Shown here in pieces: positions 6,009-27,250 of a stretch of 36,823 nucleotides of DNA. Source of the stretch: an uncultured Ignavibacteria bacterium (GTDB lineage Bacteria; Bacteroidota; Ignavibacteria; Tepidaquicellales; Tepidaquicellaceae); assembly GCA_937872315.1 (NCBI GenBank), contig CALMST010000109.1, positions 1-36,823 of the forward strand. The letters are read 5' to 3'. Numbering within the stretch: position 1 is the stretch's first letter; each line of letters starts with the position of its first letter. A program made the position numbers and the translations under genes. The notes under the pieces were generated by a model that was not told the origin of the DNA, did not search any database, and saw only the letters and a program-made list of their open reading frames with translations.

Positions 6009-6046
6009 ACACAAATTTTAATAAAATATAAAATAAAATAACAATC

Positions 6047-7465: not shown

Positions 7466-7491
7466 ATATAAAATTTAAAAAATAAAAGAAA

Positions 7492-8064
7492 ATGCTTGAA
7501 TTAATAAAACAACCATGGCACTGGGCAATAAGCGGAGCCATGATAGGACTCATAGTCCCATTATTACTGGTGTTAGGGAATAAGAAATTCGGAATATCCT
7601 CTTCGTTCAGACATATATGCGCTGCTTGTTTTTCAGGGGATATTAAATTTTTTAAATATGACTGGAAGAAAGAGATATGGAATTTGTTTTTTGTCGGAGG
7701 GATAATAATCGGTGGTTTTATCGCATCGACATTTTTGTCAAATCCCGGACAGGAAATTCAGATAGCGGAAAGAACACTTGAAACTTTGAAAGGTTATGGA
7801 ATAAAAGACTTTTCATCTCTCTTACCCGCAGACCTGTTTAGCTGGGGAAATTTATTCTCACTCAAAGGCCTGATATTTTTTGTGATCGGAGGGTTTCTTG
7901 TGGGATTCGGGACCCGGTACGCCGGAGGCTGTACATCAGGACATTCAATTATGGGACTTGCAAATCTTCAGAAGTCATCTCTTGTTGCAACAGTATTCTT
8001 CATGGCTGGAGGATTTTTGTCAACGAATGTTTTTATTCCATTGATATTTAAATTCATAAACTGA
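7492..8064 (+). CDS. YeeE/YedE family membrane protein, first half-transporter (thiosulfate/sulfur transport)
   Basis: 190 residues with about five hydrophobic helices (11-29, 64-82, 124-142, 150-160, 164-185). The signature YAGGCTSGHSIMGLANL with Cys147 is the conserved sulfur-handling motif of YeeE/YedE proteins such as the thiosulfate transporter TsuA. A second cysteine pair HICAAC (43, 46) lies near the first loop. This is about half the length of TsuA. The gene immediately downstream carries the other half, as in PmpA/PmpB-type pairs found with ArsR-type repressors and persulfide dioxygenases. The gap to the preceding gene is 26 nt and to the next 14 nt, so it is in the operon. The cargo (thiosulfate, sulfite or a persulfide) cannot be decided. 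Confidence 0.85.
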   Translation: MLELIKQPWHWAISGAMIGLIVPLLLVLGNKKFGISSSFRHICAACFSGDIKFFKYDWKKEIWNLFFVGGIIIGGFIASTFLSNPGQEIQIAERTLETLKGYGIKDFSSLLPADLFSWGNLFSLKGLIFFVIGGFLVGFGTRYAGGCTSGHSIMGLANLQKSSLVATVFFMAGGFLSTNVFIPLIFKFIN

Positions 8065-8078
8065 AAAATTTTAAAATA

Positions 8079-8585
8079 ATGATAACAAGTGATCATATAG
8101 AAACAAAGGAAGAGGTCGAGTTAAGACATCTTGATATGGTATGTACAAACGAATCTGAGCTTGTACATCCCTGGTGGTATAATTTCAAATACACTATAGT
8201 TGGAATAATATTCGGAATAGTATTCGTCAAAGCTGAAATAATAAGCTGGTTCAGGATACAGGAAATGTTTCAGCTTTCATCATTCTTTATGTATGGAGTG
8301 ATCGGAACTGCAGTGGTAGTGGGAGCAATATCAGTTTCCATTATAAAAAAACTTAAATTGAAAAGTATTTACGGGGAGCAGATACACATAGATGATAAGG
8401 AGTTTAACAAAGGACAGATCTACGGAGCGCTTATATTCGGTGTCGGCTGGGCTGTAACCGGCGCATGTCCGGGTCCGCTCTTTGCGCAGTTTGGAAGCGG
8501 ATTCAGTGTGATCATAATTACAATAATTTCTGCAGTCGCCGGTACGTGGGTATATGGGAAATTCAGGGATAAGCTGCCGCACTGA
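8079..8585 (+). CDS. YeeE/YedE family membrane protein, second half-transporter
   Basis: 168 residues. A cytoplasmic N-terminus (1-35) is followed by about four helices (38-52, 68-88, 115-135, 142-160). The motif GVGWAVTGACPGPLFAQ with Cys130 is the partner signature of the YeeE/YedE fold. With the preceding gene it would make one complete pore. It is the last gene of the sulfur operon. A short palindrome AATCAGG-A-CCTGATT (8595-8609) lies just after the stop, without a U-run, so I do not call a terminator. Confidence 0.85.
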   Translation: MITSDHIETKEEVELRHLDMVCTNESELVHPWWYNFKYTIVGIIFGIVFVKAEIISWFRIQEMFQLSSFFMYGVIGTAVVVGAISVSIIKKLKLKSIYGEQIHIDDKEFNKGQIYGALIFGVGWAVTGACPGPLFAQFGSGFSVIIITIISAVAGTWVYGKFRDKLPH

Positions 8586-9739: not shown

Positions 9740-12211
9740 ATGAGCAAAACAACTTCCAAGACCGGTGTGAAATGTCATTATTGCGGTAATGATTGCAATG
9801 AAACTTTTATCCGTTTTAAAGATAAATATTTTTGCAGACATGACTGTAAGGATGAATTTGAAAAATCACTTCCATCTCTCACTTCACTTCCAAAAGCTGA
9901 GTCTTCCTGCTGTTGTTCATCAAATGAGGCAACCAATATAAAAATTGAAGATCCTGCGGACCAGAACAAATTTAATTTTCTTGATGACAGCGAGATCCGG
10001 AAGAAAATTGTAAATCAAAACAGAAGGTATAACGGAAAGAATGTAACATCTGTTTCCTTATCTATACCCGGCATTCACTGCACTTCCTGCGTTGGTATGC
10101 TTGAGAATATCTACAGGACCAATCCCGGAATTTTAAGTTCGAAAGTAGAATTTCTTCAGAAACAGATCCATATAATCTTTGACAGTTCAGTCATTTCTCT
10201 TAAAGAAATTGTAAAAGTACTTTCCGATGCGGGATATGAAGCCAAGATAGACTTGCATAAAGACAATGAAAATTCCGATAAGAGTAAGTCATCTCAAAAG
10301 GATCTTTACATTAAAATCGGAGTGGCGGGATTTTGTCTGGGAAATATAATGCTTTTAAGTTTTCCCGAATATTTTTCAGGTGAGAATTTTACTGATAATA
10401 CACTTAAAACATTTTTCAATTATCTGAATATACTTCTTTCGCTTCCTGTATTTTTTTACTGCAGTTCCGGATATTTTAAATCTGCCTGGTCAGGTCTTAA
10501 ACAAAAGGTGATAAGCATTGATATTCCCATCTCACTGGGAATTACAGCATTGTTTGTAAGAAGTCTGTACGAAATAATTTTCTTTAACAATGCGGGATAT
10601 ATGGATTCCATGGCCGGACTTGTTTTCTTTCTTCTTTTAGGAAAACTGTTTCAGAGCAAGACATACGAATCATTGAATTTTGAAAGAGATTACAGATCAT
10701 ATTTTCCGGTATCTGTTACAGTCATTGAGGATAAAATTGAAAGAAGCATACCTGTCGCAAATCTGAGACCGGGTGACAGGATACTGATCAGAAATAATGA
10801 AATAGTGCCTGCCGATTCTATTTTGTTCGGCAAAACTTCAAGCGTTGATTATAGTTTTGTTTCGGGAGAATCTATCCCCGAACTAAAGGTAGCCGGTGAG
10901 ATCATTTACGCGGGGGGAAGACATTTAGGGTCATCAATTGAACTGGAAGTCATAAGAACAGTTTCTCAGAGTCATCTTACAAAACTATGGAATGATCCTG
11001 CATTTAAAAAGAACAATACTTCCAAATTTTCAGAATTAACTGATTTTGTCAGTAAGTATTTCACAATTGCTGTTCTTGCAATAGCCGTAACAGCTGCTTT
11101 ATACTGGCTTCCGGATATAAATAAAGCAGTAAATGTATTTACAACAGTTCTGATAGTTGCATGTCCGTGCGCTCTTGCTCTTACAACACCTTTTGCTTTC
11201 GGTAATGCGCAGAGAATACTGGGAAGGAATAAATTCTATCTGAAGAACTCATCGGTTGTTGAGAATTTAGCTAATGTGAATTCGATAGTTTTTGATAAAA
11301 CAGGAACGCTGACAAATTCAAAAGATCTGACAGTTACATACAGCGGAGTTTCTTTAAGCACGGAAGAGCTTGCTCAGATTAAAACTCTTGTAAGAAATTC
11401 TTCACATCCGTTAAGTAAAAATATATATGATTTCATAGATACAGACGAATATTACGAAGCCGAAGATTTTAAAGAATCGGTGGGGGAGGGTATTTCATGC
11501 CGTATCAACGGAAACGATCTGAAATTAGGTTCGGTGAGATTCATAGTAAAAGATCCTGATTGCTCATTTAAAGATCTGAAAAAAGAATATACGGGAAATG
11601 CTGTTTCTTCAAATGTATTCCTTTCTGTCAATGATTCCGTTAAAGGTTATTTTTCTTTCAGGAATAAATACAGAAACGGTATAATGAGAGTGATAGAGGA
11701 TTTGTCCGAAAAATATAAACTTACTTTACTGTCCGGAGATAACAATTCAGAGAAAGAAAATCTGAGTAAATATTTTAATAATGAAAGCTCGCTTTTATTT
11801 AATCAATCACCGCAGGATAAACTGAATTACATAAAGCATTTACAAAGCAACGGCGATAATATACTGATGATTGGTGACGGGCTTAATGATGCAGGAGCAT
11901 TGAAACAAAGCAATACAGGCATTACTATATCTGAAGACATTACTAATTTTTCACCGTCTTGCGATGCTATCGCAGAAGCATCTGAATTTTCTAAGTTCGG
12001 AAAATTCATGGAATTCTCGAGATCAACGATGAATATTATCAGGGTAAGTTTTGTGATATCTTTTCTGTATAATGTAATAGGTTTATATCTCGCTTCAACC
12101 GGGGTTTTCTCTCCGCTTGTAGCCGCTATTCTGATGCCGTTAAATTCGATATCCATAGTGATCTTTGTAACTATAGCAACAAATTTTTCTGCAAAGTTAA
12201 AAAAACTATAA
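9740..12211 (+). CDS. ccoI: Copper-transporting P1B-type ATPase for cbb3 assembly (CcoI/FixI)
   Basis: 823 residues. The N-terminal cysteine-rich metal-binding domain (about 10-40) has KCHYCGNDC and FCRHDC, followed by a cysteine cluster SSCCCSS (57-59). An HMA domain (about 103-170) has GIHCTSC (Cys114, Cys117). Membrane helices follow, with the ion-binding CPCALALTTP (Cys475, Cys477). The actuator loop carries SGES (375-378) in place of the usual TGES. The phosphorylation site is Asp519 in DKTGTLTN, the hinge is IGDGLNDAGAL, and there are two final helices. This layout is that of CcoI/FixI, which delivers copper needed for the binuclear centre of the cbb3 oxidase. It heads the operon, 15 nt before ccoS. 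Confidence 0.93.
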   Translation: MSKTTSKTGVKCHYCGNDCNETFIRFKDKYFCRHDCKDEFEKSLPSLTSLPKAESSCCCSSNEATNIKIEDPADQNKFNFLDDSEIRKKIVNQNRRYNGKNVTSVSLSIPGIHCTSCVGMLENIYRTNPGILSSKVEFLQKQIHIIFDSSVISLKEIVKVLSDAGYEAKIDLHKDNENSDKSKSSQKDLYIKIGVAGFCLGNIMLLSFPEYFSGENFTDNTLKTFFNYLNILLSLPVFFYCSSGYFKSAWSGLKQKVISIDIPISLGITALFVRSLYEIIFFNNAGYMDSMAGLVFFLLLGKLFQSKTYESLNFERDYRSYFPVSVTVIEDKIERSIPVANLRPGDRILIRNNEIVPADSILFGKTSSVDYSFVSGESIPELKVAGEIIYAGGRHLGSSIELEVIRTVSQSHLTKLWNDPAFKKNNTSKFSELTDFVSKYFTIAVLAIAVTAALYWLPDINKAVNVFTTVLIVACPCALALTTPFAFGNAQRILGRNKFYLKNSSVVENLANVNSIVFDKTGTLTNSKDLTVTYSGVSLSTEELAQIKTLVRNSSHPLSKNIYDFIDTDEYYEAEDFKESVGEGISCRINGNDLKLGSVRFIVKDPDCSFKDLKKEYTGNAVSSNVFLSVNDSVKGYFSFRNKYRNGIMRVIEDLSEKYKLTLLSGDNNSEKENLSKYFNNESSLLFNQSPQDKLNYIKHLQSNGDNILMIGDGLNDAGALKQSNTGITISEDITNFSPSCDAIAEASEFSKFGKFMEFSRSTMNIIRVSFVISFLYNVIGLYLASTGVFSPLVAAILMPLNSISIVIFVTIATNFSAKLKKL

Positions 12212-12226
12212 TAAAAATTTTTTAAA

Positions 12227-12391
12227 ATGAGTGTAATTATTCTTTTGATCACCGTCAGTATAATAGTAGCAGGTTCATTCCTGATAGCCTTTATATGGTC
12301 AGTAAAGACCGGGCAGTATGAAGATAAATATACACCGTCGGTCAGGATATTGCTTGATGATACTGAAGCCGGAATAAAAAATAAAAAATAA
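12227..12391 (+). CDS. ccoS: cbb3 oxidase assembly protein CcoS
   Basis: A 54-residue frame starts at the ATG 12227 and ends at the TAA 12389-12391. It has a single N-terminal helix (about residues 2-25), then FIWSVKTGQYEDKYTPSVRIL. The W-S-V-K-x-G-Q-Y-[ED]-D signature is that of CcoS. It lies between ccoI and ccoNO with short gaps (15 and 42 nt). CcoS is required for copper and haem loading of the oxidase. Confidence 0.9.
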   Translation: MSVIILLITVSIIVAGSFLIAFIWSVKTGQYEDKYTPSVRILLDDTEAGIKNKK

Positions 12392-12433
12392 AATTTTAAA
12401 TTATTATAAATAAAAAAGGAATAAAAATATAAA

Positions 12434-14566
12434 ATGATACCTGAAAAATTCAGTTACGATAATAAGATCGTCAGGGATTTTGCTTACGCAACGGTAATCT
12501 GGGGGATCGTAGGAATGCTTGTGGGTCTGATAGTATCCATACAGATCTTCCTCCCTGAGGCAAATTTCGCGACTCAGTATATTACATTCGGAAGAATAAG
12601 GCCGCTGCACACAAATGCAGTGATCTTTGCATTCGTAGGTAATGCGATCTTTATGGGAGTTTATTATTCCCTGCAGAGATTGTGCAAAGCGCGTATGTTC
12701 AGTGATACACTGAGCAAACTTAATTTCTGGGGATGGCAGCTCATTATTGTCAGCGCAGCCGTTTCTCTTCCGCTTGGATTTACCACAAGCAAAGAATATG
12801 CTGAGCTTGAATGGCCGATTGATATTATGATCGCAGTGGTCTGGGTGATCTTTGCTATAAATATGTTCGGGACAATTATTAAACGTCGCGAGAGACACAT
12901 GTATGTAGCCATCTGGTTTTATATTGCAACAGTTGTAACAGTTGCAGTGCTGCACATAGTAAACTCCATAGAACTTCCGGTTGGTTTCATGAAAAGTTAT
13001 CCGGTCTATGCCGGAGTTCAGGATGCGCTGGTTCAATGGTGGTACGGGCATAATGCAGTTGCATTCTTTTTAACAACTCCGTTTCTTGGTCTGATGTACT
13101 ATTATCTGCCGAAAGCTGCTAATCGTCCGATCTATTCATACAGATTATCTATAATTCATTTCTGGTCACTTATATTCATTTACATATGGGCAGGACCTCA
13201 TCATTTATTATATACAGCTCTTCCTGACTGGGCACAGTCACTTGGAGTGGCTTTTTCCATTATGCTGATAGCTCCGTCCTGGGGAGGTATGATAAACGGT
13301 TTGCTAACATTAAGAGGAGCATGGGATAAAGTACGGGAAGACCCTATACTGAAGTTTATGGTGGTAGCCGTTACGGCATACGGTATGGCCACATTTGAAG
13401 GACCTATGCTTTCACTTAAAAACGTGAATGCAATCGCTCACTTTACTGACTGGATCGTAGCGCACGTACATGTGGGAGCACTTGGCTGGAATGGATTTCT
13501 TACATTCGGAATACTTTACTGGCTAATTCCTAAGATTTACAGGACAAACCTTTATTCTGCAAAACTTGCAAACTTTCATTTCTGGATCGGTACACTCGGA
13601 ATTGTTTTTTATGCTGTCCCTCTGTACTGGGCGGGAGTCACACAGTCACTTATGTGGAAGCAGTTCACACCGGAAGGTCTTCTTCTGTATCCGAATTTTC
13701 TTGAGACGGTTATAAAGATCATTCCAATGTATATGATGCGTTCTATAGGAGGAACACTTTATCTGACCGGGGTAATTGTAATGACTTACAATCTTGTAAA
13801 AACAGTAAAGTCAGGAAAGCTTGTACCAAATGAAGAAGCTGAAGCACCGGCGCTTAGCAAGGATATTTTTGAAAAAGCTGAAGCTCAGCACAAGTGGCTC
13901 GAATCAAAACCGGGAAGATTTGCGATCTTTGCAACCGTAGCGATTCTGATCGGCGGAATGGTCGAACTGATCCCGACATTTTTAATTAAGTCGAATATAC
14001 CAACGATAACTGCCGTAAAGCCATATACACCGCTTGAACTTCAGGGAAGAGACCTGTATATCCGCGAAGGCTGTAATAATTGTCATTCGCAGATGATCAG
14101 ACCTTTCAGAAGCGAAACCGAAAGATACGGAGAATATTCAAAAGCGGGAGAGTTTGTTTATGATCATCCGTTTCTCTGGGGATCAAAAAGAACAGGTCCT
14201 GATCTTGCGAGAGAAGGTAAAAAATATCCGAATCTCTGGCATTATTTTCACATGGAAGATCCGCGTGTAATGTCGCCCGGTTCGATCATGCCATCGTATC
14301 CATGGCTGATCACACAGGAGCTGGATATTTCCACTACTCCTTCAAAGATCAATGGAATGAGGACACTTGGTGTGCCTTATCCTCCGGGATATGAAAATAC
14401 CGCAAATGCTGATCTGATGAAACAGGCTGAAGAAATCACTGCAGATCTGAGACAAAACAATGTAGGTGTAGAGAGCAATAGAGAGATCATCGCACTGATT
14501 GCATATATTCAGAGACTTGGTACGGATATTAAAGTGGATCAAATTAGTTTAGAAAAAATCAAATAA
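12434..14566 (+). CDS. ccoNO: cbb3-type cytochrome c oxidase fused subunits I and II (CcoNO)
   Basis: 710 residues joining two subunits. CcoN (about 1-465) has about twelve helices and the full set of ligands: His59 (PLHTNAV) and His346 for the low-spin haem b, His344 (AHVHVG) for haem b3, and His206 (WYGHNAV), His256 and His257 (AGPHHLLY) for CuB. CcoO (about 490-710) is anchored by a helix at 495-516 and carries one c-type haem at EGCNNCHSQMIRPFRSE (Cys547, Cys550, His551), with Met619 in SIMPSYPWL as likely axial ligand. The enzyme reduces oxygen at high affinity and pumps protons. The fusion of N and O is typical of Bacteroidota and Chlorobi relatives. The reading frame is intact over the junction. 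Confidence 0.96.
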   Translation: MIPEKFSYDNKIVRDFAYATVIWGIVGMLVGLIVSIQIFLPEANFATQYITFGRIRPLHTNAVIFAFVGNAIFMGVYYSLQRLCKARMFSDTLSKLNFWGWQLIIVSAAVSLPLGFTTSKEYAELEWPIDIMIAVVWVIFAINMFGTIIKRRERHMYVAIWFYIATVVTVAVLHIVNSIELPVGFMKSYPVYAGVQDALVQWWYGHNAVAFFLTTPFLGLMYYYLPKAANRPIYSYRLSIIHFWSLIFIYIWAGPHHLLYTALPDWAQSLGVAFSIMLIAPSWGGMINGLLTLRGAWDKVREDPILKFMVVAVTAYGMATFEGPMLSLKNVNAIAHFTDWIVAHVHVGALGWNGFLTFGILYWLIPKIYRTNLYSAKLANFHFWIGTLGIVFYAVPLYWAGVTQSLMWKQFTPEGLLLYPNFLETVIKIIPMYMMRSIGGTLYLTGVIVMTYNLVKTVKSGKLVPNEEAEAPALSKDIFEKAEAQHKWLESKPGRFAIFATVAILIGGMVELIPTFLIKSNIPTITAVKPYTPLELQGRDLYIREGCNNCHSQMIRPFRSETERYGEYSKAGEFVYDHPFLWGSKRTGPDLAREGKKYPNLWHYFHMEDPRVMSPGSIMPSYPWLITQELDISTTPSKINGMRTLGVPYPPGYENTANADLMKQAEEITADLRQNNVGVESNREIIALIAYIQRLGTDIKVDQISLEKIK

Positions 14567-14584
14567 TAAAATTAAAATTATAAC

Positions 14585-14749
14585 ATGTTCAAACATTATT
14601 TTGAATCAATTGACGGTCTGGAAATTTATCCCATATTTTCATTAATTGTATTTTTTATATTTTTCGTTTTGGTCTTCATCTGGAGTATGAAGGCGGATAA
14701 AAATTATTTAAAAAAAATGGAGGAGATCCCGCTTGAAAATAATGAATAA
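14585..14749 (+). CDS. ccoQ: Small cbb3 subunit CcoQ-like
   Basis: A 54-residue frame begins MFKHYFESIDGLEIYPIFSL, has one helix (about 16-34) and ends in a charged tail. Its place between ccoNO and ccoP, the single helix, and the segment ending in FIWSMKADK match CcoQ/FixQ proteins. Its stop overlaps the ccoP ATG by 8 nt. Confidence 0.82.
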   Translation: MFKHYFESIDGLEIYPIFSLIVFFIFFVLVFIWSMKADKNYLKKMEEIPLENNE

Positions 14750-15749
14750 AAATAGATCAATTAAGAAGATCTTAAAGAATAAACTGAAATTCTCAGTTTC
14801 ATTACTTGCAGTCTTCTTTCAGTCATCACTGATATTTGCACAGACTGCAGCTCCTCAGGATCAGGGAAATACGGAGACATATAATACCATACTTCTGATT
14901 TTCCTCATAATACTGATAAACCTGGTATTCATCCCTCTTCTGTATTCTGAAAAAGAAAAAACTGAGGAAGCTGAAGAAAAGGAATCATCATTCCAGGTGC
15001 TTAAACAGAAATTCTACGGACTGAAACCAATGGAAGAAGAAAAATCTCTTCTCATTGATGAGGATTATGACGGCATACAGGAGCTTGACAACAACGTTCC
15101 GCCCTGGTTCAATGTGCTTTTTTTAGCTACTATAATATTTGCGATTGTTTATCTGCTCGATTATCATGTTTTTAAAACAGGAAAACTTCCACTTCAGGAA
15201 TATAATGATGAAGTATATGCAGCCGAGCTTCAGAGAGAAGAACTGATAAGAACCGGCGCATTTATTAATGAAAACAATGTTGCATTTTCTAATGCTCCCG
15301 ATGTATTGACTGAAGGTAAACAGATCTATGCTGTGAACTGCATTCCCTGTCACGGCGGAAACGGAGAAGGTATTGTCGGTCCGAATCTGACTGATGAATA
15401 CTGGATACACGGCGGCGGGGTAAAGAATATTTTTAAGACCGTAAAATACGGTGTTCCTGTAAAAGGGATGATATCATGGCAGACACAATTAAATCCTAAA
15501 AAAATGCAGGCGGTTGTTAGTTATGTGATGTCACTTCAGGGAACAAATCCTCCGGGCGGTAAAGCTCCCGAAGGAAATCTGTATAAAGAAGGACAGGATT
15601 CAACGGTAGTTAAATCTGACAGTTTAAAAACCGATAACGTTAAAACAGACAGTTCAAAGTCTGAACAGATAAAATCAGATAGTTTAAAAAAAAATAATAA
15701 TAAAGAGGTAAAGACTGATAAATCTGATACAACGTCGATGAAGAAATAA
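14742..15749 (+). CDS. ccoP: cbb3 oxidase subunit III, single-haem CcoP
   Basis: 335 residues from the ATG at 14742, which overlaps the end of ccoQ; a TTG nine bases earlier is in frame but less likely. There is a signal-like helix (about 17-33), a membrane helix (48-68), a charged loop, a second helix after the conserved NNVPPWFNVLF, and then one cytochrome c domain with CIPCH (Cys200, Cys203, His204) and axial Met243 in VKGMISW. Proteobacterial CcoP has two haems; one is usual in Bacteroidota. The last 55 or so residues are a low-complexity K/S/D/T/N tail with repeated KSDSLK units. It carries electrons to the CcoO haem. Confidence 0.93.
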   Translation: MNKNRSIKKILKNKLKFSVSLLAVFFQSSLIFAQTAAPQDQGNTETYNTILLIFLIILINLVFIPLLYSEKEKTEEAEEKESSFQVLKQKFYGLKPMEEEKSLLIDEDYDGIQELDNNVPPWFNVLFLATIIFAIVYLLDYHVFKTGKLPLQEYNDEVYAAELQREELIRTGAFINENNVAFSNAPDVLTEGKQIYAVNCIPCHGGNGEGIVGPNLTDEYWIHGGGVKNIFKTVKYGVPVKGMISWQTQLNPKKMQAVVSYVMSLQGTNPPGGKAPEGNLYKEGQDSTVVKSDSLKTDNVKTDSSKSEQIKSDSLKKNNNKEVKTDKSDTTSMKK

Positions 15750-15753
15750 ATAT

Positions 15754-17145
15754 ATGGAAACGCAAACCGAGAGTTCATACAGGGATACAATATCAATTGT
15801 TGATGATAAAGGCGGTAGGAAATGGGTTTATCCGAAAAAACCAAAAGGCAGACTTTATAATGCCAGAACAATAGTCAGCATTATTCTTCTTGCAATTTTA
15901 TTCGGTGTCCCGTTTTTAAGATCTGACGGACATCCTGTAATGCTTTTTGATATTCTGAACAGAAAAATTATTCTTTTCGGAACATTCTTTACACCTTCCG
16001 ATTATTATCTTTTCGGACTTATAATGATTTCCGCATTTGTGCTTCTCTTTCTTGTTACAGCGGTATTCGGAAGAGTATTCTGCGGATGGATATGCCCTCA
16101 GACAATTTTTCTTGAAATGGTCTTCAGAAAAATCGAATATTTTATTGAAGGTGATTATACAAGACAAATGGAGCTTAATAAAGCTCCATGGGATAATGCC
16201 AAAATAATAAAGAAGTTTTCAAAATATCTGATCTTCTTCATCCTTTCTTTCATTATTGCAAATACATTTCTTGCCTACATAATTGGTACGGACAAGTTGT
16301 TTAAGATAATGACGGATCCTATGTCAGAGCATCTTAGCGGGTTCATTTCCATTATGGTGTTTACAGGTTTGTTTTATTTTGTATTTGCCTGGTTCCGTGA
16401 ACAGGCGTGTATACTCGTCTGTCCTTACGGCAGGCTTCAGAGTGTACTTCTTAATAAGAATTCAATTGTCATAGCATATGATTTTATCAGAGGAGAACCA
16501 AGAGGTAAACTGAGCAAAGTCAGTGAAAAGAAGACCGGTGACTGCATAGACTGTAAAAAATGTGTCTATGTCTGTCCTACGGGTATTGATATCCGTAACG
16601 GAACACAACTGGAATGCGTGAACTGTACTGCCTGTATAGATGCCTGTGATTCTATAATGGATTCGATCAATAAGCCAAGAGGACTCATAAGATTTGATTC
16701 GATTGAAGGTATAGAGACGAAGACAAAACTGAAATTTACTGCAAGAGTCGCCGGGTATATTGCAGTGCTGCTGGTTTTGATAACAATCACAACACTTATG
16801 TTCACTTCAAGAAAGGATATTGATGTGAGTATATTAAGGACTCAGGGTATGCTCTATCAGAAAATAGAAGGAAACAAGGTCAGTAACCTTTATAATATTA
16901 AGATCTCAAATAAGACTTTTAATGACCTGCCTGTAAGTTTTAAACTGAATAATATATCAGGTGAAATAAAAGTGATCGGTGAAAATGTTAATCTTAAAGC
17001 GGCGGGAATTTATGAGGGAAGTTTAATGGTAATAATTCCTGAAGAAAGTATTAAGACCGTAAACACTCCTATTACTATAGATGTATATACGGGTGATAAA
17101 TTAATTATAAAAGAAGAGACCTCTTTTTTAGGTCCTGTAAATTAA
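15754..17145 (+). CDS. ccoG: cbb3 assembly ferredoxin-like protein CcoG
   Basis: 463 residues. There are about five helices (40-55, 86-105, 158-177, 198-213, 332-350). The N-terminal part has CGWICPQTIFLE (Cys110, Cys114) and CILVCPYGRLQS. A 2x[4Fe-4S] ferredoxin domain follows, with CIDCKKCVYVCP (264, 267, 270, 274) and CVNCTACIDAC (288, 291, 294, 298). The C-terminal Ig-like domain (about 355-463) is the CcoG/RdxA type. CcoG is thought to reduce copper for insertion into the oxidase. It starts 4 nt after the ccoP stop. Confidence 0.94.
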   Translation: METQTESSYRDTISIVDDKGGRKWVYPKKPKGRLYNARTIVSIILLAILFGVPFLRSDGHPVMLFDILNRKIILFGTFFTPSDYYLFGLIMISAFVLLFLVTAVFGRVFCGWICPQTIFLEMVFRKIEYFIEGDYTRQMELNKAPWDNAKIIKKFSKYLIFFILSFIIANTFLAYIIGTDKLFKIMTDPMSEHLSGFISIMVFTGLFYFVFAWFREQACILVCPYGRLQSVLLNKNSIVIAYDFIRGEPRGKLSKVSEKKTGDCIDCKKCVYVCPTGIDIRNGTQLECVNCTACIDACDSIMDSINKPRGLIRFDSIEGIETKTKLKFTARVAGYIAVLLVLITITTLMFTSRKDIDVSILRTQGMLYQKIEGNKVSNLYNIKISNKTFNDLPVSFKLNNISGEIKVIGENVNLKAAGIYEGSLMVIIPEESIKTVNTPITIDVYTGDKLIIKEETSFLGPVN

Positions 17146-17149
17146 TAAT

Positions 17150-17599
17150 ATGAAAATAAGCTGGGGAGTAAAAATAATTATAACTTTTATAATTTTTGCG
17201 GCGGGTATTTTCACAATGGTCGCTGTATCAATGATGAATGATACTGATCTTGTAAGTGAAAACTATTATGAGCAGGAGATCAAATATCAGGACCAGATAG
17301 ATCTGCTTAATAAATCTGCACACCTTAACGAGATTGTTAATCTGACACAGGAAGGAAATGAGCTTATCCTGAATGTTTCAGAACTTGTAAAGGAAGGCGA
17401 AAATTCTTATTCGGGAAAAATACTGTTTTACAGAGGCTCTGATGCAAAAAAAGATTTTGATATTCCGTTTGATCCGGACAGTAACGGGATCCAGAAAATA
17501 AATTCGGAAAAACTTGCTAAAGGTTACTGGAAAGTCAGTCTTAAACTCATAAAAAACGGGGATGACTACTTTGTTGAGAAAAAAATTTTTGTAAATTGA
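17150..17599 (+). CDS. ccoH: cbb3 assembly protein CcoH (FixH-like)
   Basis: 149 residues. One N-terminal helix (about 8-27) is followed by DTDLVSENYYEQEIKYQDQI, the FixH signature for a periplasmic domain, and a beta-rich remainder ending in KGYWKVSLKLI. It starts 4 nt after ccoG and closes the cbb3 gene set. It helps assemble and stabilise the oxidase. No clear terminator follows. Confidence 0.9.
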   Translation: MKISWGVKIIITFIIFAAGIFTMVAVSMMNDTDLVSENYYEQEIKYQDQIDLLNKSAHLNEIVNLTQEGNELILNVSELVKEGENSYSGKILFYRGSDAKKDFDIPFDPDSNGIQKINSEKLAKGYWKVSLKLIKNGDDYFVEKKIFVN

Positions 17600-17762
17600 G
17601 ATCTTTGTAAACTGATAAAAAAATATAATATCCGGTATTCAAACCATTAACCGCTGTTTTTTACTGCCTGTCTTTCTTACATACTTAAAACATCCCATTT
17701 CCCCAAAATATTTCAGATAAGATTAGTTTCCCAATAACTGTTGAATTGTTATTCAGATATAT

Positions 17763-18506
17763 ATGAATTATTTTGATGCTCATAAAAGGTATATTATGTC
17801 AAAAAAATTTCAGACACCATTCTGTGAAACATGCCAGGCAAGGATAGGTTCAATATTCTGCGAACTTACGGAAGATGAATTGTTAAATATTTCTGCGCAA
17901 AAACATTGTAATTTTTATCTGAAAGGCCAGCAGATCTTTACCGAAGGAAATTTTCCGACAGGGTTACATTGTGTAAATAAGGGAAAAATAAAAGTTTCCC
18001 AGAGCGGATTTGAAGGTAAAGAACAGATCATTAGACTTGCCAAAGAAGGCGATATTCTTGGTTACAGATCACTTGTCAGCGGTGATGCCTATACTGCTTC
18101 TGCTATAGCAATTGAAGATTCAAAAGTATGTTTGATCCCTAAAACTCTTTTTTTCGAAATGATAAGGATGAATCCTGAAATTACAGGAAAAATAATGAAA
18201 CTGCTTGCGTCAGATCTGAAAGATGCAGAAAATAAAATTACAAATCTGGCTCAGAAACCTGTTATAGAAAGACTTGCTGAAGCTATTCTTATGCTCAGGG
18301 AATATTATGGTTTTATAAAAGATGAAAATTCACTTACTATTACAATTACCAGAGAAGAGATCGCCAACATTGTCGGAACTGCTACAGAAACTGCCATACG
18401 AATCTTATCAGAACTCAAACGCGAAGGTATAATCGCTCTCGATGGAAAAAAGATTAAGATACTGAATATTGATGCCCTGATTAAACTGGCTAATCTGTAT
18501 GATTAG
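17763..18506 (+). CDS. Crp/Fnr-family transcription regulator, possible Fe-S oxygen sensor
   Basis: 247 residues from the ATG at 17763. A second ATG at 17796 follows an AAAAGG stretch and gives 236 residues, so the start is open. The cyclic-nucleotide-binding fold spans about 45-150 (GQQIFTEGNFPTGLHCVNKGKIKV, then GDILGYRSLVSG). The HTH_Crp domain (about 165-240) has ITREEIANIVGTATETAIRILSELK; the recognition helix carries E..xxR like Fnr and Crp, but with Ile where Fnr has Ser212. The N-terminus has FCETCQARIGSIFC (Cys21, Cys24, Cys33), plus Cys49 and Cys70 as possible fourth ligands, so a [4Fe-4S] cluster is plausible. Its place right after the cbb3 operon, and TGAY-N4-RTCA palindromes before usp and ccoI, suggest it controls both. 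Confidence 0.85.
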   Translation: MNYFDAHKRYIMSKKFQTPFCETCQARIGSIFCELTEDELLNISAQKHCNFYLKGQQIFTEGNFPTGLHCVNKGKIKVSQSGFEGKEQIIRLAKEGDILGYRSLVSGDAYTASAIAIEDSKVCLIPKTLFFEMIRMNPEITGKIMKLLASDLKDAENKITNLAQKPVIERLAEAILMLREYYGFIKDENSLTITITREEIANIVGTATETAIRILSELKREGIIALDGKKIKILNIDALIKLANLYD

Positions 18507-18626: not shown

Positions 18627-20639
18627 CTACGGAGTTACGGCAACAACAAACATTCCCGAATTATTAAAAGCTAACAGTACATCTGACACATCCGAGATAT
18701 TATCACCGGTTATATCTGACAACTCATATCCTGTAATGAAATTTATAGCATCATTATAAATATACAACACGTCACCCATTTCTATATAAGAATCATTATT
18801 CACATCACCGCTATAGACAGCAAAAACATCCGGGGAACTGTCAACCTGAATGAGATTACTTCCGAATGCTTTTGACGAATTTTCAGTCATGTCATAACTG
18901 ACAGTTGAGCCGTTTGTAAATATTACACCTCCCGCCTTGCTCCAAGTTTCTAAACTGTTCCTGTGTTTAACGGTAATGAAATAAGTGCCTCCGGGTGTAT
19001 TCCTGAAATTAAAACCTGCGGTGAGTGTTGCAGAATCTAAAACTGCTATAGAAGTATCAATTATTTCAAAAGGTGAATTTATATTTCTAACATAAGCAGT
19101 AACAGTATCACTCCTTCTCATTGTGCCGGCGGAATTGTCATAAAATCCTTCAATGGCTAATTTAAGCTCCAGATCAACATCCAGTATCTCAAAGAATCCT
19201 CTGTATGATCTTATCCCTTGTTCAAATGTAAGCTGAAGAGCAATATCACCTGCGGGAGTTATTTCGGAAAATGTGCCGACCGGAGAAGCGCCCCAGCATA
19301 TAACCGTATTTCCGTTACTGAGTCTTTGTACAGAACCTGTGGCGTTTCCGTAAATAACAGGATCATTTATATACTGCCATACAAGAGTTGCAGTTTTATT
19401 CGTCTCGTCAAGCTGATATTCCACTGCTCTGGAAAAATTAGGTGTATGGAAATTACCATTATCATACATTGTAATATTTCCGTTTGCGATCCGTCTTATG
19501 TCATGCTGATAGGTAAATTCAACCGAATCATTAAAAATTGTAAACTCATTATTTATTCCTCCGAAACGCCAGATGATATCGCCTGTTGCCCGGCTTATTT
19601 TAGTTATCTCGCTCATATGTCTGCAGGACATCATAATGTTACCGTCATCATCGGGTTCGACGGCATTTCCGTGGACATAATCAATTAATGAATCAGTAAG
19701 ATCAATATGGTTTGCATCTGTGATCTGAAAATGATCCCAGCTTCTCCATTGAAAGACGACGTTTCTGTCAGGATCAAGTTCCTGAATTATGAATCCCGTC
19801 ACAATTGCGTTTGGATTTCCGCCGGGCACGATCACACTCATGTCTACCGGCTGAGGATCATAACTTGTAAGCAGATAATTTCCATTGTCAAGTAATTGCA
19901 TGTCATGAATATTTGTAATGTAACCGTTACCGCAATAAAAACTGTCATTGACATTAAAATCGTTATCCATCGAAAGAAACATTCTTCTTGTTCTTGAATA
20001 ATAAGTCATGAGTCCGTTTGGCTGTCTTTTAAAATCCACTACGCCATTAGGTTCCTCTCTTGTAAAAACCGGATTTCCATTCTCATCTGCTATAATTAAA
20101 TGCGGCGGGTATAATATATTCTGTGAACTGTTTGTATAAAGCAAACCGGATGTGGGATTATTGGAGATTTCCACGGTTAATGCCGGTGCCGGGAGCATAG
20201 AATAATTATTTGAATTTACATTTCTGTTGAATGAAGGATCTTCATCATCATAGTACCTGAGCGCATCAACTTCAAGTTTTGCTTTTTGAGTATAGAATGA
20301 AAAGGACATATTATGGTTTTTCATACCTGTGGTTTTTACATTTTTCAGCTCAACATTTACTTTTTCATTTAATGCAAAAGGCTGATCCGGTTTAAAGATC
20401 AAAGACTGTTTGTCCCTCGTGAATATGATCCCGCCTTTGTGAATACCGCTGACCGATCCTGAAACAATTAATTTTGATGTGATATCCCGTGTGAGAATTT
20501 TTTCATCAAAACTGATAATTATGTTGTTTTCGGTATTTACAGATCCGGCATTATCTGTCGGGTCGGTGTAGATGATCTTTGCATTTGTCAAATTAAAGTT
20601 TGAAAATAAAATTACAAGAATTGTCAGGATGGATTTCAT
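18627..20639 (-). CDS. Exported arylsulfotransferase-like protein with Big_5 and dockerin-like C-terminal module, paralogue 1
   Basis: 670 residues. A signal peptide (1-20, cleavage after TNA) is followed by an SbsA/Big_5-type Ig-like domain (about 24-117: IIYTDPTDNAGSV, IIISFDEKI, SLIFKPDQPFALNEKVNV). Next is a beta-propeller of the arylsulfotransferase family (about 145-490) with VVFQWRSWDHFQ, DYVHGNAVE (His323), SCRHMSEITK, TGDIIWRFGG, YQHDIRR (His379) and MYDNGNFH. The C-terminal module (about 495-670) contains VKHRNSLETWSKAGG and two EF-hand-like segments (GDVNNDSYIEMGDV, DITGDNISDVSDV) and ends FVVAVTP. The family transfers sulfate between phenols, but many members of this second type have unknown activity. 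It is the first of three tandem copies, and no lipobox is seen. Confidence 0.82.
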   Translation of the reverse strand: MKSILTILVILFSNFNLTNAKIIYTDPTDNAGSVNTENNIIISFDEKILTRDITSKLIVSGSVSGIHKGGIIFTRDKQSLIFKPDQPFALNEKVNVELKNVKTTGMKNHNMSFSFYTQKAKLEVDALRYYDDEDPSFNRNVNSNNYSMLPAPALTVEISNNPTSGLLYTNSSQNILYPPHLIIADENGNPVFTREEPNGVVDFKRQPNGLMTYYSRTRRMFLSMDNDFNVNDSFYCGNGYITNIHDMQLLDNGNYLLTSYDPQPVDMSVIVPGGNPNAIVTGFIIQELDPDRNVVFQWRSWDHFQITDANHIDLTDSLIDYVHGNAVEPDDDGNIMMSCRHMSEITKISRATGDIIWRFGGINNEFTIFNDSVEFTYQHDIRRIANGNITMYDNGNFHTPNFSRAVEYQLDETNKTATLVWQYINDPVIYGNATGSVQRLSNGNTVICWGASPVGTFSEITPAGDIALQLTFEQGIRSYRGFFEILDVDLELKLAIEGFYDNSAGTMRRSDTVTAYVRNINSPFEIIDTSIAVLDSATLTAGFNFRNTPGGTYFITVKHRNSLETWSKAGGVIFTNGSTVSYDMTENSSKAFGSNLIQVDSSPDVFAVYSGDVNNDSYIEMGDVLYIYNDAINFITGYELSDITGDNISDVSDVLLAFNNSGMFVVAVTP

Positions 20640-20817: not shown

Positions 20818-22830
20818 CTAAGGTGTTACCGTTCCAACAAATAAAATAGAATTATTGGAAGCAATCAGGACATCAGCAAGTCCGGCAATATTGTTTCCGT
20901 TAAGATCGGAGTCTATATAACCAGCTGCAAAATCAACAGCATCATTAAATGTGTATATCACATCAGATAGTTCGATGAAATCATCATTAACAACGTCACC
21001 GCTGTATAATGCAAAAATATCAGGTGAGCTGTTAACCTGAACAAGATTATTTCCAAACGCTTTTGAAGAATTATCAGTCATGTCATAACTTACTGATGAG
21101 CCGTTGGTAAATGATTCACCACCCGCTTTACTCCATGTTTCAAGACTGTTTCTGTGTTTAACGGTTATATAAAAGTCTCCTGTAGGAGTATTCTTCAATT
21201 TGAAATTTCCCGTAAAAGTGAGAGAGTCAATAACCGCTATGGATGTATCTATGATATCAAAAGGCGCTGCAATGTTTCTTATAAAAACTGTTGCAGTATC
21301 ACTCATATTAAGAATATTATTTGCATTATCATAAAATCCTTCTATGGCAATTTTCAGATCAAGATCAATGTCCAGGATCTCAAAGAAGCCGCGGTAAGAA
21401 CCTATTCCGGGTTCAAATGATAATTCAAGTCTGATCTCACCCTCCGGGGTTACTTCAGAAAAAGTGCCGGGACTGGAAGCTCCCCAGAATATCAGAGTGT
21501 TTCCGTTTTCCAGTCTCTGAGCCGAACCTCTCGCATTACCGTAAATATCAGGAGAGTTTCTGTACTCCCATACCAGTGTTGCTGTTTTATTTATTTCATC
21601 AAGCTGATATTCCACAGCTCTGGAAAACAGGGTACTGTGAAAGTTTCCATTATCAAAAATAGTAATATTACCGTTATCAATTCTTCTGATATCATGCTGA
21701 TAACTTATCTCAATGGAATCATTTGGAAAAGTAAATTCATTATTGATACCGCCTAATCTCCATATAATGTCACCGGTAGCGCGGTTGATCTTTGTGATCT
21801 CGCTCATGTGTCTGCAGGAGATAAGAATATTACCGTCATCATCCTGCTCCACTGCATTGCCGTGAACGTAATCTATCAGTGAATCAGTAAGATCAATATG
21901 ATTAGCATCGGTTATATTGAAATGATCCCAGCTTCTCCATTGAAAGACAACATTTCTGTCCGGATCAATCTCCTGGACAATCAGTCCCGTGACAATTGCA
22001 TTAGTATTACCTCCGGGGACGATCTGACTCATATCCACGGGTTGCGGATCATAACTCATTATCAGGTAATTGCCGTTAGCAAGAAACTGCAGGTCATGAA
22101 TGTCAGTCGAATATCCGTTGCCGCAGTAAAAACTGTCTGTTATGTTATAATCATTATCCATCGAGAAATATTTCTGGCGGTCTCTTGAAAAGTATGTCAT
22201 CACTCCGTTTGGCTGTCTTTTAAAATCCAGTACCTGATTGACCTCCTCGCGGGTGAAAAAATAACTACCGTTTTCATTTGCAATAAGCAGATGAGCTTTA
22301 TTATAAAAATTCTTAAAGTTATTGGTATAGATCAGACCTGAAGTCGGATTGTTATATATAACGGGAGTTAAAGGCGGAGCAGGTAAAGAGGAATAATTAT
22401 CTGAAGTTACAAATTTGTTGTAAGACGGATCTTCTTCATCAAAATACTTCATTGCATCAAATTCAATTTTCTTTTTCTCAGTCTGAAATGAATATGAGAC
22501 ATTGTTATTATAAGATCGCGAAGTTGATAAAATTGAAAGATTTACAGATACTGTCTCATTGAATTCAAACGGATGATAAGGTTTGAATAATAAACTTTTT
22601 CTGTCAGGGGTTATAACTGTCTCGCCGGAATGTACTCCGCTGACTGAACCGGTGACGGTCAATGCCGGACCTGAAGGAGAATTGAGAATCGTTCCGTCAA
22701 AAGTTAATATGATGCCGTTATCTATGCTGACGTGCGCTGCGTTTTTTACCGGATCAGTATAAACAACATCTGCATGAGCATTTTTAAGGCATACAGAAAG
22801 TAAAAATAAGAAAAGAACATAAGTTTTCAT
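20818..22830 (-). CDS. Exported arylsulfotransferase-like protein, paralogue 2
   Basis: 670 residues, the same length and domain order as its two neighbours: signal peptide (1-20, ending KNAHA), Big_5-type Ig-like domain (about 24-117), arylsulfotransferase-type propeller (about 145-490) and dockerin-like C-terminal module. Key segments are VVFQWRSWDHFN, DYVHGNAVE, SCRHMSEITKINR, DIIWRLGG, SYQHDIRR and FDNGNFH. The tail has GDVVNDDFIELSDV and DLNGNNIAGLADV and ends FVGTVTP. Conservation is highest in the propeller core and in the C-terminal ETWSKAGG block, and lowest in the Ig-like domain. It has its own terminator downstream. The substrate is unknown. Confidence 0.82.
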   Translation of the reverse strand: MKTYVLFLFLLSVCLKNAHADVVYTDPVKNAAHVSIDNGIILTFDGTILNSPSGPALTVTGSVSGVHSGETVITPDRKSLLFKPYHPFEFNETVSVNLSILSTSRSYNNNVSYSFQTEKKKIEFDAMKYFDEEDPSYNKFVTSDNYSSLPAPPLTPVIYNNPTSGLIYTNNFKNFYNKAHLLIANENGSYFFTREEVNQVLDFKRQPNGVMTYFSRDRQKYFSMDNDYNITDSFYCGNGYSTDIHDLQFLANGNYLIMSYDPQPVDMSQIVPGGNTNAIVTGLIVQEIDPDRNVVFQWRSWDHFNITDANHIDLTDSLIDYVHGNAVEQDDDGNILISCRHMSEITKINRATGDIIWRLGGINNEFTFPNDSIEISYQHDIRRIDNGNITIFDNGNFHSTLFSRAVEYQLDEINKTATLVWEYRNSPDIYGNARGSAQRLENGNTLIFWGASSPGTFSEVTPEGEIRLELSFEPGIGSYRGFFEILDIDLDLKIAIEGFYDNANNILNMSDTATVFIRNIAAPFDIIDTSIAVIDSLTFTGNFKLKNTPTGDFYITVKHRNSLETWSKAGGESFTNGSSVSYDMTDNSSKAFGNNLVQVNSSPDIFALYSGDVVNDDFIELSDVIYTFNDAVDFAAGYIDSDLNGNNIAGLADVLIASNNSILFVGTVTP

Positions 22831-23026: not shown

Positions 23027-25039
23027 TCAGGGTGTTATTGAGCTTACAAATTTTCCGGAGTTATTAAATGTTATCAAAACGTCAGTGAGATCGGAGATAT
23101 TGTTCCCTGTAACATCAGACAATTTATAACCCGTAACAAAATTGCCGGCATCGTTATTAATGTATACAACATCTGTAAGGTCTATAAACAGATCATTATT
23201 TATGTCGCCGCTGTAATTTGCAAATACTACAGGAGAGGCATCGACCTGTGTTAAATTATTTCCGTAAGCTTTAGAAGATGTGTTAGTCATGTCATAGTTT
23301 ACCGTAAAACCGTTTGAGAATAATTCCCCGCCGGCTTTGCTCCATGTTTCAAGACTGTTTCTGTGTTTTACGGTAATGTAATAAGTTCCGGTTGGTGAAT
23401 TTTTAAAAATGAAATTTGCATACAGTGTTACTGAATCCACTACTGCCCTTGCAGTGTCAATAATATTGAACGGGGAAGTAATGCTTCTTAAGTATGCTGT
23501 TACTGTATCTCTCTGGTTAAGAGTATTGGTTGCTGATTTATAGAATCCTTCCATTGCAAGTTTCAGATCAAGATTCTGATTCAGCACTTCAAAATATCCT
23601 CTGTATGCCCCGAGTCCGAGTTCAAAGGAAATTTCAAGAGCAATTGTTCCCTGCGGAGTAACTTCTGTAAAAGTAGGTGTTGACGCGGCTCCCCAGCAAA
23701 TGAATGTATTTCCGTTACTGAGTCTTTGAGCTGAACCTCTAGCAGGTCCATAGATTTCAGGAATGTTTCTGTATTGCCAGACTCTTGTTGCGATTTTATT
23801 TACTTCATCAAGCTGATATTCGACTGCTCTTGAAAAAGAAGGTGAATGATAATTACCATTATCAAACAGAGTAATATTGCCATTTGAAATTCTCCTTATA
23901 TCATGCTGATAGCTGAACATAATTGAATCGTTGGGAAAAGCAAACTGGTTGTTTTTTCCGCTCAAGCGCCATATTATTGCGCCTGTGGTTCTGTTGATCT
24001 TTGTGATCTCACTCATGTGACGGTTTGAGATCAATATATTGCCATCGTCATCCTTTTCAATAGCATTACCGTGAACATAATCGATTAAAGAATCAGTAAG
24101 GCTGATGTTAATACAGTCCGTGATCTGAAAATGATCCCAGCTTCTCCATTGAAAAACTACATTCCTTGCAGGGTCAAGTTCCTGAATTATCAGACCGGTG
24201 ACAATAGCATTTGGATTACCTCCTGCCACAACCTGACTCATATCCACAGGCTGTGGATCATATGCCATTAATAAATAATTTCCGTTGCTAAGTACCTGGA
24301 GTTCGTGTAGATCTGTAGTATAACCATTACCTGTATAAAAACTGTCAATGATGTTATAGCTGTTATCCATTGCCCTGAATACTTTTTTTAATCTGTCAAA
24401 ATACGTCATCAAACCGTTTGGCTGTCTTTTGAAATCAACATTTGGCTGAGGTGACTGAAGACCATATACAGGATTTCCTTCTTCATCCGCAATCAGAATA
24501 TGTGATGGATTAAAAAAGTTAGGGAAATTATTTGTATAAATTAAACCATTGGTTGGATTATTGGAAATTGAAGGCGTAAGTAAAGGAGCAGGCAGTGATG
24601 AATAGCTGTCCTTAACTTCCAGTCTGTTATAATCAGGATCTTCATCATTGAAATATTTCATAACATCAACATCCAGCTTCACTTTTTGCGTCTGAAATGT
24701 AAAAGACCGGCTGTTATCCGCAGTACCGGTAGTCCTGACATTTGCTAAATTTACTGTAACAGTTTCGTTGAATTGAAACGGCTGATGCGGTTTGAAAATT
24801 AAAGTTCTGTTATCACCGGTAATAACAATGTTTCCGGTATGAACACCGCTTTTAGAACCTGTAACCGTGATAAGTGAGTTAAGATCAGAACCGGTTATGT
24901 TTCCGTCAAATGTAAAGATTATATTATTCTCTATGCTGACATACTGCGCGTTGTTTACAGGATCAGAATAGATTATTTTTGCCTGGGAGATATTTATGCC
25001 GGCAAATAAAAACACTAAAAATAGAACTGTAGCCTTCAT
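23027..25039 (-). CDS. Exported arylsulfotransferase-like protein, paralogue 3 (diverged in the core)
   Basis: 670 residues with the same plan: signal peptide (1-20, ending ISQA), Big_5-type Ig-like domain, propeller and dockerin-like C-terminal module ending FVSSITP. Most core segments are kept: VVFQWRSWDHFQ, DYVHGNAIE, NRHMSEITKINR, SYQHDIRR and FDNGNYH. Two positions shared by the other two copies differ. TDANHIDLTD has become TDCINISLTD, losing a histidine, and WRLGG or WRFGG has become WRLSG. This copy may therefore differ in substrate or activity. The sequence upstream of the start has no recognised promoter, and the intergenic region there is long. Confidence 0.82.
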   Translation of the reverse strand: MKATVLFLVFLFAGINISQAKIIYSDPVNNAQYVSIENNIIFTFDGNITGSDLNSLITVTGSKSGVHTGNIVITGDNRTLIFKPHQPFQFNETVTVNLANVRTTGTADNSRSFTFQTQKVKLDVDVMKYFNDEDPDYNRLEVKDSYSSLPAPLLTPSISNNPTNGLIYTNNFPNFFNPSHILIADEEGNPVYGLQSPQPNVDFKRQPNGLMTYFDRLKKVFRAMDNSYNIIDSFYTGNGYTTDLHELQVLSNGNYLLMAYDPQPVDMSQVVAGGNPNAIVTGLIIQELDPARNVVFQWRSWDHFQITDCINISLTDSLIDYVHGNAIEKDDDGNILISNRHMSEITKINRTTGAIIWRLSGKNNQFAFPNDSIMFSYQHDIRRISNGNITLFDNGNYHSPSFSRAVEYQLDEVNKIATRVWQYRNIPEIYGPARGSAQRLSNGNTFICWGAASTPTFTEVTPQGTIALEISFELGLGAYRGYFEVLNQNLDLKLAMEGFYKSATNTLNQRDTVTAYLRSITSPFNIIDTARAVVDSVTLYANFIFKNSPTGTYYITVKHRNSLETWSKAGGELFSNGFTVNYDMTNTSSKAYGNNLTQVDASPVVFANYSGDINNDLFIDLTDVVYINNDAGNFVTGYKLSDVTGNNISDLTDVLITFNNSGKFVSSITP

Positions 25040-26011: not shown

Positions 26012-27250
26012 TCAGGGTTTTATCACGCTTACAAAATTGTTGGAATTATTAAATGCTATCAATACATCTGTTACATCCACAAGATCATCTCCGGTCAGAT
26101 CGGTTGGCACATATCCTGTCGTAAATAAATTGGCATCATTAAACACACTCACAAGATCAGTGGCATCTACAAATCCGTTCTGATCCACATCACCTCCGTA
26201 AAAGCAATATTTGGCAAGTTTAAATACCTGATTACTTCCGTAAGCAGTTGCTGCATCATCTTTGAAAGAATAATATTCAAATCCGTTAAGACTAAATGTG
26301 ACTGGAACACTGCTCCAGGTCTCTATGGTATTTCTGTGATGAACCGAAACATAGTAATCTCCCGGAGGAGCATTAAAAAAACAGAATTGTCCACCCCAGG
26401 TCCCAACTATCGCAGATGCAGAATCGACTACATTATATGGAGAGACCGGACTGTGAAGTTTTACGGTCATTACGTCTTCAACCATCTCCGATCCGTTCCA
26501 GAATCCTTCAATGAGTGATTCAAGATAAAAATTGAAAACGGCAGTTTCATAAATGACGGTAACTTCAGGTTGGAATTCAATCGTGTCTGCATCTGCGGTA
26601 TGAAATCTCTTTGCCGTGGAATCTGAAGTTTCATCCCCGATCAGGATCCATCCGAATTCATCAGAAGGATTATCAAGCCATGACTGAAAATCCGCAACCA
26701 ATTCGGGAGTTGAATTAAAATTATAATATCCGGGACCTCCGACTGTAGCAGAAGTACTGACTATCCCGGAATAAACTCCGCCCGGCGAAGACCATAAGTC
26801 AGTATTGTAATAACGATGCAGCCATGTTGCATCATAACTGCTTGCCGCGGTTCCGTCTTCTTCAAGGCCGGGAGCATTTGAATTTCCCTGACCCCATCTT
26901 TCCAGTACTTTTCTGACTTCAATTGTTTTGTTTTCCGGATTACCACCTGCGAGATGAAGTTTTAAGTTTACACTTAATACTTTTGTGCATGGCGGGAAAA
27001 ATTCTATTGCAAGAAAATTCAACAATGCTCTTCTGATAAGACCTGTGTTACTCTTACCTGCAAACATGTATTTTCCCCTTCCATTACTTATCATACCTCC
27101 TGCATCTTCATATAAGGTATTGTCGAAATAGGAAGGCAGGGTTATCGTATCCTGAATACAGTATGCTTTTTTATCCGCCGAAAAAATTATTATTAAAAGT
27201 ATAAAAAAGAAAAGTGATACTTTTGTTAAATTTTTTAAAATGTTTTTCAT
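26012..27250 (-). CDS. Exported DNRLRE (CBM96-like) protein with the shared dockerin-like C-terminal module
   Basis: 412 residues. A long hydrophobic signal region (about 10-30) ends near KKAYC. Residues about 34-235 form a DNRLRE/CBM96-like beta-sandwich: DNTLYEDAGGMISNGRGKYM, RRALLNF, SVNLKLHLAGG, VRKVLERWGQG and ATWLHRY, ending in FQPEVTVIYE. Residues about 240-412 are the same module as in the three upstream paralogues: LIEGFW, HHRNTIETWSSVPV, AYGSNQV, GDVDQNGFVDATDLVSVFND, DLTGDDLVDVTDVLIAFNNS, and the end FVSVIKP. The N-terminal domain is of a kind seen in cell-surface and carbohydrate-binding proteins. Sharing only the C-terminal module with its neighbours suggests a common surface-localisation route. 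Confidence 0.75.
   Translation of the reverse strand: MKNILKNLTKVSLFFFILLIIIFSADKKAYCIQDTITLPSYFDNTLYEDAGGMISNGRGKYMFAGKSNTGLIRRALLNFLAIEFFPPCTKVLSVNLKLHLAGGNPENKTIEVRKVLERWGQGNSNAPGLEEDGTAASSYDATWLHRYYNTDLWSSPGGVYSGIVSTSATVGGPGYYNFNSTPELVADFQSWLDNPSDEFGWILIGDETSDSTAKRFHTADADTIEFQPEVTVIYETAVFNFYLESLIEGFWNGSEMVEDVMTVKLHSPVSPYNVVDSASAIVGTWGGQFCFFNAPPGDYYVSVHHRNTIETWSSVPVTFSLNGFEYYSFKDDAATAYGSNQVFKLAKYCFYGGDVDQNGFVDATDLVSVFNDANLFTTGYVPTDLTGDDLVDVTDVLIAFNNSNNFVSVIKP

Follow-up and report, generated by a model that had tools for sequence, protein, structure and literature searches.

The dockerin fold is otherwise associated with docking to cohesins, not with export. The closest described structures are the type II XDoc dyads of cellulosomal scaffoldins (PDB 2b59, 4wi0 and 5k39), in which, as in the module described here, a beta-sandwich precedes a dockerin. 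The C-terminal domains (CTDs) of the type IX secretion system (T9SS) fall into two main classes, A and B, and a minor type C (ChiA), each with its own shuttle where this is known; types B and C are a precedent for unrelated CTD classes served by separate shuttles (PMC12618676, PMC10202324). In Cloacimonadota, dockerin-bearing enzymes and a scaffoldin with a T9SS tail have been proposed (PMC8542988). Our literature search found no paper on the module, on PorU2/PorV2, or tying such tails to the T9SS. We report that a tail of 175 residues with predicted calcium-binding loops, previously undescribed and carried by about 110 exported proteins of one genome, probably serves as an alternative label by which proteins are directed to the cell surface or fixed there.

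The window, the whole stretch of 36,823 nucleotides that was analysed, encodes one DNRLRE protein and three arylsulfotransferase-like proteins, all listed among its open reading frames on the minus strand (Table 1). The first-pass annotation had noticed a common C-terminal module of about 175 residues in these four proteins, and the alignment bears this out, with 174-178 shared residues and 35-42% identity to the DNRLRE copy. The motifs it listed are present (xEGF[YW], [KH]HRN[ST][LI]ETWS, A[YF]G[SN]N and two EF-hand-like loops), except that FNNS occurs in only three of the four copies, and the ending it gave as FV-x3-P has to be corrected to F-V-x4-P. Its description of the N-terminal parts as unrelated holds for two independent bodies, not for four, since the three arylsulfotransferases are close paralogues with 63-67% mutual identity. 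Elsewhere in the window, reading the ORF list by eye suggests genes for a copper-type P-ATPase, for subunits of a cbb3-type oxidase, for a CcoG-like protein and for a Crp/Fnr-type regulator (9740-18506), and this block reaches the convergent arylsulfotransferase cluster. The same reading suggests a sulfur-related block at 4816-8585, in which genes resembling rhodanese and persulfide dioxygenase accompany a YeeE/YedE-like pair.

Table 1. Module-bearing proteins of the window and the parts of the module, with positions in the window.
Feature	Position	Strand	Basis
DNRLRE-domain exported protein, 412 aa: signal peptide, DNRLRE body, C-terminal module	26012..27250	-	NF033679 E 3.4e-9
C-terminal XDoc-like module of the DNRLRE protein, 174 aa, FVSVIKP at the stop	26015..26536	-	Genome search, alignment, AF2 model
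X-like beta-sandwich half, module residues 1-112, with IEGFW and HHRNTIETWS	26201..26536	-	AF2 model; transthyretin/carboxypeptidase-regulatory-like by VIA-align
Dockerin-like half, module residues 113-174, two Ca-loop/helix repeats	26015..26200	-	AF2 model, Foldseek, VIA-align, profile search
EF-hand-like loop 1, module residues 116-127, DVDQNGFVDATD	26156..26191	-	D116 in 78/81, D127 in 81/81 copies
EF-hand-like loop 2, module residues 146-157, DLTGDDLVDVTD	26066..26101	-	D146 and D157 both in 81/81 copies
Terminal F-V-x4-P, module residues 168-174	26015..26035	-	F168 is the repeat equivalent of internal F138
Arylsulfotransferase-like exported protein 1, 670 aa: Big_5, ASST body, module	23027..25039	-	PF14269 E 7.8e-31, PF05935 E 2.3e-30
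Module copy of arylsulfotransferase-like protein 1, end FVSSITP	23030..23557	-	Alignment
Arylsulfotransferase-like exported protein 2, 670 aa	20818..22830	-	PF14269/PF05935
Module copy of arylsulfotransferase-like protein 2, end FVGTVTP, SNNS in place of FNNS	20821..21348	-	Alignment
Arylsulfotransferase-like exported protein 3, 670 aa	18627..20639	-	PF14269/PF05935
Module copy of arylsulfotransferase-like protein 3, end FVVAVTP	18630..19157	-	Alignment

Neither Pfam nor NCBIfam has a family that spans the module. The AlphaFold2 model based on 81 copies (mean pLDDT 97.6, no residue below 90) consists of a beta-sandwich followed by two Ca-loop/helix repeats. The first ten Foldseek matches in the PDB were all cellulosomal X-module-dockerin structures, and the top eight in VIA-align were all XDoc dyads (Z 11.2-12.7 over 137-145 residues; next best 6.6), of which the best is a type II dyad (Z 12.7 over 142 residues); the X half looks like a transthyretin or carboxypeptidase-regulatory domain. 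XDoc and dockerin chains also ranked first in the sequence-profile search (best E 5.8e-4), and Dockerin_1 (PF00404) matched 20 of the 81 copies at E <= 0.01 (best 1.9e-6), the window copies staying below the cut-off. Both loops follow the canonical DxNxDGxxDxxD pattern of PF00404 (D116, N/D118, D/N120, D124 and D127; D146, N/T148, D150, D154 and D157), with D127, D146 and D157 invariant and D116 nearly so, whereas the X half and the F-x5-P end lie outside that model. The module is thus predicted to be a calcium-binding XDoc-fold unit made of a beta-sandwich and a two-EF-hand dockerin. Since its best PDB matches are XDoc dyads, the predicted fold is that of a dockerin, contrary to the first-pass annotation, which had preferred a sorting or anchoring signal to a cellulosome-type dockerin; yet no cohesin was found in this genome or in seven other module-rich ones. 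Shared with the dyads are the order of the two halves, the overall fold, the two Ca-loop/helix repeats and the C-terminal position in the carrier. The module differs from them in its low identity (about 10-18%), its exchange with T9SS sorting domains, its roughly 110 copies, bodies unlike cellulosomal enzymes, a diderm host and the lack of a recognisable cohesin.

The extreme C-terminus itself had been proposed as the signal, and here the evidence points the other way. Repeat 1 aligns with repeat 2 (hhalign E 3.9e-12), pairing the internal F138 with the terminal F168, so the conserved terminal F is explained by the duplicated dockerin fold. The final P is the only feature beyond the repeat and is conserved also where the chain continues, and the last residues are modelled as well folded (pLDDT 97). 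We therefore discarded the idea that the FV-x-P end acts as a sorting motif by itself.

In the 4.56 Mb genome from which the window derives, the 174-residue DNRLRE module gave 111 matches, nearly all with E <1e-19, a recurrence far beyond chance. The corresponding loci contain 110 distinct copies, one per protein and situated at or near the C-terminus. Among the 108 copies with a complete 3' end, 87 end at the module proline (84 with exactly F[VIA]-x4-P before the stop and 3 with hydrophobic-x4-P), 18 continue for 1-86 residues while retaining the F-x5-P end, and 3 end otherwise. About ten copies (L036, L043, L069, L047, L066, L050 and L035 among them) have an extra tail of 28-86 residues, which mostly starts with PPGAxP and in several cases contains FENDAxRQKYE and VPNW and has a basic end; comparable short tails follow the module in relatives. 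By a simple heuristic, 95 of 104 module proteins have a signal-peptide-like N-terminus, compared with 58 of 179 control ORFs, and only two have a lipobox-like one. Their bodies, from short to about 1,600 residues, belong to kinds that are typically secreted or displayed on the surface: subtilase, M12B protease, VPS10/BNR propellers, LVIVD, FG-GAP, SBBP, ASST and DNRLRE. The expectation that a proteome scan would reveal many unrelated exported proteins ending in the module was thus confirmed, and its confinement to this gene cluster, which would have spoken against a sorting role, does not apply; of the internal occurrences raised together with it, only rare cases were found.

The strongest evidence for reading the module as a sorting label is its exchange with the T9SS type A domain (TIGR04183/PF18962). 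Both are terminal, are found on signal-peptide proteins, number more than 100 per genome and take the same position on the same orthologous bodies. The module is longer, however (about 175 versus 80-100 residues), and its last part is a dockerin where type A has an Ig-like sandwich; TIGR04183 has no match in the module copies, and a comparison of the two profiles gave an hhalign probability of 2%, that is, no detectable homology, so that the exchange is not mis-detected homology. The type B domain (TIGR04131/PF13585) is of similar length (150-235 aa), and its models are absent among the Pfam and NCBIfam families matched by the 81 copies at E <= 0.01. The genome encodes at least 150 type A domains. 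The loci fetched from it comprise 112 module ORFs and 86 type A ORFs, none with both, and 60 module bodies have a type A-tailed homologue there, several over the whole body at 50-70% identity (LVIVD 70% and 61%, subtilase 68%, VPS10 63%). Orthologues were surveyed in 44 genomes of the order. For the arylsulfotransferase body, 5 of 30 loci have the module (G000, G070, G239, G097 and G127) and 25 type A, with no other tail; for the subtilase body the counts are the same, with the module in G000, G070, G127, G097 and G175, and in the last three of these a second subtilase copy adjoins the module-tailed one. Pooled, the 60 loci divide into 10 with the module, 50 with type A and none with both. Together with the paralogue pairs, this shows that the module substitutes for the type A signal on one and the same cargo.

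PorU was detected in all 40 genomes tested, including the window's own, in which PorV adjoins it. The module is therefore the terminal domain of signal-peptide-like proteins in a T9SS-bearing genome, and on orthologous bodies it occupies the CTD position, two of the features that define a T9SS C-terminal signal by function. We put the probability that this XDoc-fold module stands in for the type A signal, as a label for export or surface attachment, at roughly one half, its function being deduced from these patterns. The module would mark a Sec-exported periplasmic protein to cross the outer membrane and take its place on the cell surface, with the genome's own T9SS as the most likely route. 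The module would then represent a further, structurally unrelated class of C-terminal signal with its own receptor, for which a shuttle, a PorU2-type attachment protease or a docking protein are candidates. The interpretation of the first-pass annotation is partly supported: a portable terminal module replaces a sorting signal on orthologous bodies, but it has a dockerin fold and no separate C-terminal motif.

A search for a co-occurring membrane protein had also been suggested. A dedicated shuttle was not found in searches of the PorV family, whose numbers do not track the module (7-11 in module-rich and 6-14 in module-poor genomes), or of PorP/SprF, which gave sub-threshold matches only and none at the cut-off. 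PorU2-like C25 proteins (NF052324, below cut-off) do track it: eight well-assembled module-rich genomes have 4, 4, 4, 4, 4, 4, 5 and 4 (pieces counted in G167), and other family members have 0-2. In the PorU2-like tree the extra copies form two clades, found among the sampled genomes only in module-rich ones. The three module-rich genomes in the PorV tree group together, however, so the co-occurrence may reflect a single evolutionary event, and we treat it as a lead only. The four PorU2-like proteases of the window's genome are about 1,620 aa long (L214:5-4885, L215:5394-10244 and L216:5941-15738; C26, C283 and C323), have type A-like C-termini and mostly lie beside glycosyltransferase or polysaccharide-export genes. 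A more specific scenario, to which we give about one chance in three and which we hold tentatively, is that one Ignavibacteria clade turned a cellulosome-type X-dockerin fold into a new class of T9SS outer-membrane export and surface-sorting signal on about 80-160 proteins per genome, with clade-specific PorU2 proteases as processing or attachment partner. If so, a calcium-binding dockerin-fold signal on as many proteins as the standard tag would widen the recognition range of the T9SS and could explain how dockerin-tailed proteins leave diderm cells. Hundreds of unannotated secretome proteins gain a common label.

The main rival is a private, divergent docking partner: the tail would be a true docking module that plugs 110 already exported proteins into a surface scaffold through a cohesin diverged beyond recognition, much as cellulosomes are assembled, and would anchor them without exporting them. 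The match to type II XDoc dyads, the profile matches to XDoc and dockerin chains and the near-invariant Ca-binding loops all suit docking, and the dockerin enzymes and T9SS-anchored scaffoldin proposed in Cloacimonadota (PMC8542988) keep this rival in first place. Cohesins are also common in other families of the class, being detected in 229 of 391 genomes, but they are missing exactly where the module is most abundant. The window's genome has none by Pfam (PF00963), nor do the other module-rich genomes, and a class-specific profile built from 18 Ignavibacteria cohesins found nothing in it or in seven other module-rich genomes, although its best control hits reached 1e-30 to 1e-41. At this sensitivity, the encoded cohesin partner that defines a cellulosomal dockerin is therefore lacking in all eight. 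Within the window's own family, cohesins occur in three genomes only. Docking also leaves unexplained how proteins without a type A tail cross the outer membrane, and we regard it as unlikely, if the most serious of the alternatives.

Less probable still is that the exchange alters the destination, type A copies being secreted and module copies remaining periplasmic or bound to an envelope ligand through the calcium-binding module. Paralogues with either tail kept side by side in one genome would fit different destinations, and the X half has its likeness to transthyretin or carboxypeptidase-regulatory domains to recommend it; more than 100 subtilases, metalloproteases, VPS10, FG-GAP and adhesin-like proteins with bodies up to about 1,600 aa, however, seem improbable periplasmic cargo. 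A reading of the module as a commonplace accessory domain, which gene duplication and recombination have spread and which plays no part in targeting, is very improbable: tandem clusters of module genes (C125, C304 and C46) and rare internal copies speak for it, but almost every copy lies at the end or close to it, and in orthologues the module replaces type A at the same position. Free shuffling would not give this pattern.

As to the distribution of the module, a scan of named genomes with a 13-row module profile retained 79 loci, all from Ignavibacteria or 'Bacteroidetes' metagenome-assembled genomes, and 129 of 391 genomes of the class contain module matches. Counts of 79-163 first-look candidates in well-assembled genomes are limited to five genera (g1, g5, g8, g11 and g12) of the window's own family, and genomes outside these mostly have 1 to 16 matches. 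In 99 of 114 complete module ORFs from the other named Ignavibacteria loci, the stop directly follows the last residue of the module. In one protein of a distant Ignavibacteriales genome (L145:3518-4825), a T9SS type A domain comes after the module, perhaps an intermediate state, and two G384 genes continue for at least 370 residues downstream of the module; these exceptions indicate that it is not always a terminal signal. In distant lineages and in those with few copies, the homologous dockerin-like end is likewise C-terminal; most often P or [ST]xVP precedes the stop, or a short tail, often basic, comes after it. The loci L316-L334, from nine families (f10, f13, f17, f18, f20, f22, f26, f27 and f28), have a dockerin-like terminal domain that stops in [ST]QVP or VPx and belong to a wider family of dockerin-like tails at protein ends, most of which lacks a model. 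One of these distant class members is an alpha-amylase-like protein with a dockerin-like end.
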